NCBI GenBank assembly: GCA_030650425.1
Contig: JAUSED010000011.1
Coordinates: forward strand, 1 to 51,275
Reading direction: 5' to 3'
DNA length: 51,275 nt
Source: Candidatus Omnitrophota bacterium
GTDB taxonomy: Bacteria > Omnitrophota > Gorgyraeia > Gygaellales > Profunditerraquicolaceae
Shown: positions 2,398 through 51,275 of the stretch, piece after piece
Numbering within the stretch: position 1 is the stretch's first letter
How the letters are laid out: each line of letters begins with the position of its first letter
Notes under the pieces: generated by a model
The model's input: the letters and a program-made list of their open reading frames with translations, nothing else
The model's database searches: none
What the model was told of the DNA's origin: nothing
Position numbers and translations under genes: made by a program

Positions 2398-2412
2398 AGA
2401 ATAGAGAATTAA

Positions 2413-2510
2413 ATAGGGGAGGTCGTAGATACGGCCTGAGAGTTCCGCGAAAAAGCGGATTACCCGAATAACCTGAACTGGATAATGCCAGCGTAGGGAA
2501 GTAAAGTGGA
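2413..2510 (+). promoter_or_regulatory. TPP (THI-element) riboswitch
   Basis: The diagnostic blocks are present in order: GGGGAGG (2417), CTGAGAG (2436), ACCCGAATAACCTGAACTGG (2462), GATAATGCCAGCGTAGGGAA (2481). A small variable stem (CCGC...GCGG) sits between. It precedes thiE-thiS/G/H and is followed directly by an intrinsic terminator, so high thiamin diphosphate should stop transcription. Confidence 0.97.
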
Positions 2511-2517
2511 ACTTTTG

Positions 2518-50183: not shown

Positions 50184-50458
50184 TCCCCCTTAGCTCAGTT
50201 GGTAGAGCGAGTGGCTGTAAATGATTGCAGCTTCTACGGGAAACCGTGGTTGAAACTGCAGGAGAATTGCTGGAAGCCCTACGTAATACACGAGGGTAAT
50301 CAGCAGCCGAGCCCCGCCGAAGGCGGGGAAGGTTCAGAGACTATGCACCTGCTGCCGTAACGAGAAAGACGACGGTAAAGATATAGTCCGAATCCGAAAG
50401 TAATTTCGGGAAATTCGTAACCACTTTGTCCGAGGTTCGAGTCCTCGAGGGGGAGCCA
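50184..50458 (+). tRNA. tRNA-Asn(GTT) interrupted by a group I intron
   Basis: Exon 1 is 50184-50218 and exon 2 is 50418-50458, CCA encoded. Spliced, the 76-nt tRNA folds fully: acceptor TCCCCCT/AGGGGGA, D stem GCTC/GAGC, anticodon stem AGTGG/CCACT with loop CTGTTAA (anticodon GTT), T stem CGAGG/CCTCG. The intron splits the anticodon between positions 35 and 36. Reading the unspliced left side alone would give a false GTA (Tyr) anticodon. Confidence 0.92.
50219..50417 (+). ncRNA. Compact group I self-splicing intron
   Basis: 199 nt, ending in the required G. P1 forms between exon GCTGT (50214-50218) and intron GCAGC (50227-50231), with the U.G wobble at the splice site. The conserved core strings are all there: P AATTGCTGGAAG (50265), Q AATCAGCAGCC (50298), R GTTCAGAGACTA (50332), S AAGATATAGTCC (50378). 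P6 is a CCCCGCC/GGCGGGG hairpin and P9 CCGAAA/TTTCGG. No homing endonuclease. It resembles IC3-type tRNA introns. Confidence 0.93.
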
Positions 50459-51275
50459 TTGTTGACGAACAGACGCACCAAGCTTCTGTTCGGTTACAGC
50501 CCCATTTCGGCATTGCGCCGGAGTGGGGCTTTTTTTCTTTACACCGTCGTGATTATGGTTGCAGTCGGTAATATCGGCTTGCAAAGACTCGTCAGGATCG
50601 CCAAGGTACATTTTAAGGTCGATCACGTCGTTATGGATCACAATCTCTTTCACAAGGGCGTGTATTAGGCTTTTCTGGGCATCTACGGGGGCTTTGTCGA
50701 GGTACTGCATGGCAAACTGCAGGGTTTCGTGGAGGTAGTCGGCTGAGTTTGCGGTCATGTCGTTGACCGTTTTTTGTGTCCGCAGTTTGGTGAGTTTGTC
50801 TTCTAGGGTTACGATTTGGCTGTCCAATTCGGACATTTTATTCTTATACGTTGCGCCTTGCGTGACCGTGCCGCTCATTGCCAGATCGAGAAGGGTCTTG
50901 GCTTCGTGGTGACATTCATTTAATTTTGCCTCAGTTTCATTAACCAAGGTATCAATGCGCCCGGCCATCAGCTGGGCTTCGCGCATGGCATCGCCGATTC
51001 CCTTGGCGATGATTTCCCTGTTATGGGATGCCTTGCGAAAATAATTAATCAGGGCCTTGTCGAAAACTACGGCAGGTATGCTCAGTTCATTACATCCGAG
51101 CTTTTGTTTGGATCGTCCGCAGATGTAGTAAAAAAACTTCTTTCCTGATCGCCCCTTGTTGGATATCGAGATAAGGTGGCTCCCGCATTTTCCGCATCGC
51201 AATAATCCGCTTAATAGATAATCGTATGATTTTGGTTTCCGGCTGAATCCGTGCCCGGGCAGTTTGGCAACGAGC
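50300..51275 (-). CDS. Large serine recombinase, C-terminal part (partial)
   Basis: The frame is open to the right edge, so the catalytic N-terminus is outside. Visible from the edge: YDYLLSGLLRCGKCGSHL and YYICGRSKQKLGC, the recombinase zinc ribbon, then a ~100-residue coiled coil (NETEAKLNE...LEDKLTKLRTQKT) and a beta-rich end (ALVKEIVIHNDVIDLKMYL), standard for large serine recombinases. Recognisable sequence ends near 50600. Beyond it the frame reads antisense through the terminator, the tRNA exon (WLPLEDSN) and the intron to a stop at 50300, so the natural end was probably lost. Confidence 0.85.
   Translation of the reverse strand, partial: LVAKLPGHGFSRKPKSYDYLLSGLLRCGKCGSHLISISNKGRSGKKFFYYICGRSKQKLGCNELSIPAVVFDKALINYFRKASHNREIIAKGIGDAMREAQLMAGRIDTLVNETEAKLNECHHEAKTLLDLAMSGTVTQGATYKNKMSELDSQIVTLEDKLTKLRTQKTVNDMTANSADYLHETLQFAMQYLDKAPVDAQKSLIHALVKEIVIHNDVIDLKMYLGDPDESLQADITDCNHNHDGVKKKSPTPAQCRNGAVTEQKLGASVRQQWLPLEDSNLGQSGYEFPEITFGFGLYLYRRLSRYGSRCIVSEPSPPSAGLGC
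50498..50537 (+). terminator. Strong terminator downstream of tRNA-Asn
   Basis: A 14-bp stem (AGCCCCATTTCGGC, 50498-50511, with GCCGGAGTGGGGCT, 50517-50530, including two or three G.T pairs), 5-nt loop, then a T-run. It ends the tRNA transcript and lies within the 3' part of the opposing recombinase frame. Confidence 0.9.

Follow-up and report, generated by a model that had tools for sequence, protein, structure and literature searches.

The tRNA-Asn(GUU) gene of an Omnitrophota genome was found, with high confidence, to carry between U35 and U36 a small group I intron that lacks an endonuclease, and the sequence predicts self-splicing, an essential role, and membership in a lineage that spreads by homing. 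The gene lies at positions 50184-50458 on the forward strand of the window, the term used here for the whole 51-kb contig analysed (C12; 51,275 nt), which is part of a 1.8-Mb draft genome (G000) with 94.4% completeness and a reported contamination of 0.18%. On all of the sequence evidence, the intron appears to be real, functional, and of a known kind.

The split gene and its intron

The intron divides the anticodon of the tRNA after U35 (Table 1), with the junctions reading CTGT/AAATGATT...AAATTCG/TAA. Joining the exons in silico gave a perfect 76-nt cloverleaf with the loop CUGUUAA and the anticodon GUU. The identity of the gene as tRNA-Asn is given by this anticodon once spliced, the full cloverleaf, the pair U1-A72, and the discriminator G73; among 122 Asn hosts extracted (including 3 duplicate records), U1-A72 was present in all, and G73 in all except one truncated locus. 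The initial annotation had described a tRNA-Asn(GUU) with its anticodon split after position 35, and its coordinates proved to be exact, with ARAGORN in agreement.

Table 1. Coordinates of the tRNA-Asn gene, its intron, and neighboring features in the window.
Feature	Position	Strand	Description
tRNA-Asn 5' exon	50184-50218	+	TCCCCCT TA GCTC AGTTGGTA GAGC G AGTGG CTGT; acceptor TCCCCCT, D-arm, anticodon stem AGTGG, loop CTGT (C32 U33 G34 U35)
Group I intron	50219-50417	+	199 nt; omega-G is the last base (50417); RF00028 99.7 bits; ARAGORN i(36,199)
tRNA-Asn 3' exon	50418-50458	+	TAA CCACT TTGTC CGAGG TTCGAGT CCTCG AGGGGGA G CCA; U36 A37 A38, CCACT, variable loop TTGTC, T-arm, AGGGGGA, G73, encoded CCA
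P1	50213-50220 / 50225-50232 (internal guide)	+	8/8 pairs; U35.G wobble at splice site; loop AUGA
P2 hairpin	50234-50249	+	GAAA tetraloop; compensatory changes at 5 pairs
P3, pseudoknotted	50258-50262 / 50348-50352	+	no pair lost among 14 sequences; a single A-U/G-C covariation
Element P	50265-50275	+	
P4	50268-50273 / 50300-50305	+	compensatory changes
P5	50276-50279 / 50294-50297	+	compensatory changes
Element Q	50298-50308	+	
P6 hairpin	50312-50328	+	CCCCGCC / GGCGGGG; pairing in the window
Element R	50332-50343	+	
P7 (guanosine site)	50339-50344 / 50383-50388	+	encloses P3 3' strand and P8; invariant in 14 sequences
P8	50353-50377	+	compensatory changes
Element S	50378-50389	+	
P9 hairpin	50394-50409	+	GUAA tetraloop; compensatory changes
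Probable intrinsic terminator, downstream of tRNA	50498-50530	+	14-pair stem, 9 G-C, then TTTTTT
Large serine recombinase, C-terminal part	50300-51274	-	Pfam Zn_ribbon_recom, 1.9e-11
TPP riboswitch	2405-2516	+	63.9 bits

In a search of the whole window, the intron matched RF00028 over the full model, well above the cut-off of 50 bits (E=1.1e-24). All four core elements were located together with the complete set of helices P1-P9, which bears out the earlier description of a 199-nt intron with a complete P/Q/R/S core. This catalytic core (P3-P8 with P, Q, R, and S), the pair U50218.G50227 at the 5' splice site, and the terminal omega-G (G50417) establish the element as a group I intron. An RNAalifold comparison of 14 Omnitrophota relatives retained P2, P4, P5, P7, P8, and P9, and 19 of its 45 nested pairs showed compensatory changes; the program also suggested a few other pairings for the 5' exon, which clash with P1 and were set aside. 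For P1, the first intron base was Watson-Crick complementary to the base preceding the GCAG guide in 92 of the 107 Asn introns with a located guide, compared with 38 expected under independent columns, which is no formal probability because the 107 sequences are related. Several relatives carry CCUAAG...UAUGG in P8, which we take to be the 11-nt tetraloop receptor, and the window intron has a variant of it. The intron can be described as IC3-like, the kind found in bacterial tRNAs, a label that leans on its tRNA host, size, and tetraloops because RF00028 does not separate subgroups; the criteria that apply are presumably a host site in a tRNA anticodon loop, a small size, and GNRA loops on P2 and P9.

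In the precursor, C32-U33-G34-U35 of the 5' exon would pair with the internal guide GCAG of the intron, placing a U.G pair at the splice site. An exogenous guanosine held in P7 would attack after U35, and the freed U35 would in turn attack after omega-G 50417, leading to ligation of the exons, release of the intron, and formation of the mature tRNA-Asn.

Detection of the gene and its copy number

ARAGORN called no tRNA at this locus under default settings, returned tRNA-Asn (gtt), placing a 199-nt intron behind base 35, when introns were allowed, and returned tRNA-Tyr when the canonical 37/38 intron position was forced; the tRNA model by itself scored 19.7 bits, below its cut-off of 29. Both outcomes foreseen in the initial annotation, a missed gene and a miscall as Tyr, were thus seen with this program. 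According to the tRNAscan-SE 2.0 paper, fMet and Ile2 contain group I introns, and the program was not built for finding them. Despite the ARAGORN call at the fixed position, there is practically no chance that the gene is a tRNA-Tyr with an intron after base 37, since neither the U.G pair nor the terminal omega-G survives in this reading, and U1-A72 and G73 agree with Asn. Moreover, the window gene has a class I arm (5-nt variable loop), whereas the real tRNA-Tyr of the genome, at C3:76236, is class II and has an intron of its own. The latter is the second group I intron of the genome (L002; G000:C3:76236-76427) and splits tRNA-Tyr(GUA) likewise after U35. A third RF00028 match (L003; G000:C5:74921-75129, reverse strand) scored 38.6 bits, below the cut-off, and adjoins 23S rRNA sequence; with this neighbor it was ruled out as a tRNA intron and is probably an rRNA intron.

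With the gene read as tRNA-Asn, the presence of another intact copy, a check proposed in the initial annotation, was examined across the assembled 94.4%-complete genome. None was found among the 34 other tRNAs above the cut-off, none was intact by pattern, and the window copy showed no signs of decay. Splicing is probably essential because no other tRNA-Asn was found in a 94%-complete genome, and on this evidence the gene is apparently the sole tRNA-Asn of the cell. Also missing from the calls were tRNA-Phe, tRNA-Ile(GAU), and several of the Ser tRNAs, perhaps owing to assembly gaps or further hidden introns; because of these absences and the completeness of the draft, a second tRNA-Asn may lie in an assembly gap. 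It is nevertheless very unlikely that the window copy is decaying, its intron having ceased to splice while the 6% of the genome left unassembled holds an intact tRNA-Asn. Such coexistence is seen in one genome of the family (G066, 5% contamination), which has an intron-bearing and an intact tRNA-Asn, and the incomplete draft with its unseen tRNAs would leave room for it; however, the core elements, both splice-site pairs, and the exon pairs of the window copy are all intact, its differences from relatives are compensatory, and the assembled genome holds no intact copy.

The assignment of the contig itself was also considered, as the genome is a draft MAG and the window is an entire 51-kb contig that ends in part of a recombinase. 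Misbinning, in which the tRNA would belong to another organism, is very improbable: the closest introns come from the same family of genomes, the tRNA backbone agrees with that of a congener (G069), and the reported contamination is low.

Upstream of the tRNA-Asn gene lies a gene whose translation looks ABC-F-like by eye. The serine recombinase listed in Table 1 is convergent to the tRNA, and its open frame passes through the 3' exon. Similar recombinases were observed beside tRNA-Asn in relatives, with 74% identity in L214 and 20-25% in L205, L216, L220, and L184, possibly indicating an integrative element at tRNA-Asn. A TPP riboswitch was also detected elsewhere in the window.

Distribution and mobility of the intron

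GTDB contigs were scanned with a pattern that needed U36-A37-A38 and a class I arm and did not require Asn; at least 112 loci were returned, at least 95 of which are tRNA-Asn(GUU) split after U35; four are other tRNAs, and the remainder are incomplete or unresolved. Among the matches listed, the hosts of the Asn 35/36 intron are mostly Patescibacteria, with others in Omnitrophota, Elusimicrobia, and Margulisbacteria. In the family to which the window belongs, introns above the cut-off were present in 57 of 108 genomes, with insertions in Asn and Tyr after U35, in fMet and Lys after U33, and in Arg(UCU) after U34. Strict patterns, whose tallies are lower bounds, gave an Asn intron in at least 29 of the 108 genomes, an intact tRNA-Asn in at least 33, and both in one (G066). 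Intron-free tRNA-Asn occurs in the same genus as the window (G069), as well as in other genera that have intron-bearing genomes. The initial remark that Asn is a less usual host holds when the hosts classically listed (Leu, Arg, Ile, and fMet) are the yardstick, but the above counts show Asn to be a common host in Patescibacteria, in Omnitrophota, and in a small number of further phyla.

Two viral contigs with tRNA arrays, L264 and L270, contain 10 and 15 ordinary tRNAs, respectively, plus a tRNA-Asn with the same intron, and L264 has tail and baseplate-like genes. Phage records gave partial matches alone, covering about a third of the query, and plasmid records held no DNA similar to it.

A tree of 173 intron cores showed four host changes for five host tRNAs, and because this is the minimum number, the lineages appear to be site-specific. 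Hopping between GUN tRNAs through their common guide was discarded as a recent process, as the tree shows one lineage per host tRNA. Asn and Tyr introns both split the tRNA after U35 and have the same GCAG guide, which would fit a recent arrival in tRNA-Asn by reverse splicing or transposition from a tRNA that this guide can also target, for example tRNA-Tyr (common CUGU, U35 site). This origin is clearly unlikely, however: the Tyr introns form one group (support 87), the host changes do not exceed the minimum, and the window intron is 67% identical to the Tyr intron, compared with 93% for its best Asn relative, so that one ancient jump at most is needed. The window intron belongs to a 28-row Omnitrophota group (support 99). 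Three other Omnitrophota introns nest among 21 non-Omnitrophota introns (support 97), and because of this placement the intron has probably passed from one phylum to another at least once.

Asn introns measure either about 180-400 nt or 515-630 nt. In the long introns the P1 loop contains an ORF, and in these HNH ORFs the CGY, HH, and C..CHRE motifs are invariant. PHROG HNH families were matched by all 29 aligned members (best 1.6e-32); the Pfam HNH model gave a weak match to most relatives and none to single HNH proteins at 0.001. The lineage looks mobile, judging from its sequences, because 31 of the 36 introns of at least 500 nt keep an intact HNH motif and intron-free alleles exist. Alleles with and without the intron in close relatives, and the transfer between lineages indicated by the three nested Omnitrophota introns, agree with what is expected of homing introns. 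The window intron has no ORF at 199 nt and is therefore an endonuclease-free mini-intron, not itself a complete homing intron; among the cores nearest to it are introns with an HNH gene (L203) and without one (L187). It would be a member of a lineage dedicated to this site, which moves from one bacterium to another by homing with the HNH endonuclease that full-length members encode in their P1 loop; the window copy has lost or lacks the gene.

The window tRNA has its acceptor, D-arm, and TTTGTC variable region in common with the intact tRNA-Asn of the congener G069, and its anticodon arm is that of intron-bearing genes, unlike the G069-like remainder. This combination, seen against one congener, is the pattern that a short co-conversion would leave.

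A wider interpretation, which is put forward tentatively and with slightly less than even confidence, is that parallel homing lineages, each dedicated to one site in the anticodon loop, cross phyla and are carried by phage tRNA arrays. These lineages would comprise Asn introns with HNH, fMet introns with an I-SspI-like enzyme, and Tyr, Lys, and Arg introns without one in the present sample. Many sole tRNA-Asn genes would then depend on a parasite-derived ribozyme, and the window tRNA would be a product of homing.

Relation to known introns and implications

The window intron resembles the bacterial IC3 introns of tRNA-Leu(UAA), Ile(CAU), Arg(CCU), and fMet in its size (~200 nt), anticodon-loop location, U.G pair, omega-G, and full core; it differs from them in its Asn 35/36 site and in the endonuclease of its full-length relatives, which is HNH and not of the I-SspI type. 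The fMet introns of family relatives carry an endonuclease matching that of the cyanobacterial tRNA-fMet intron with I-Ssp6803I (PDB 2OST), whereas the window intron lacks an ORF and belongs to a separate lineage in another tRNA. The I-Ssp6803I homologue was observed in fMet introns of Omnitrophota, including L182, L207, L222, and others (2OST E=2e-44; Pfam PDDEXK_5). The group I introns in 16S and 23S rRNA of CPR bacteria (PMC11270868) overlap in hosts and are likewise mobile with endonucleases, but they occupy rRNA sites and encode LAGLIDADG enzymes.

Asn is not mentioned as a host in a 2014 review, which states that the phage group I introns known by that year were all in protein genes. A CPR review noted insertions in tRNA genes, and a 2025 preprint cited in PMC12641178 reports, according to its title, a novel group I insertion site in tRNA genes of Patescibacteria, the phylum where the Asn 35/36 site is commonest. 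Because of this title, much of the Asn-intron finding may already be claimed there. Possible novelties are the occurrence in Omnitrophota, the form with an HNH gene for homing, the presence on tRNA arrays of phages, and the existence of several parallel lineages, each specific to its site.

Bacterial tRNA hosts are more varied than classically listed, with Asn among the commonest hosts found here. Because the gene is invisible to a standard search, genomes of these phyla appear to be without tRNA-Asn. The family offers compact ribozymes for in vitro work, and it is a clean natural setting in which to study how the anticodon loop is shared by site-specific introns whose endonucleases differ.
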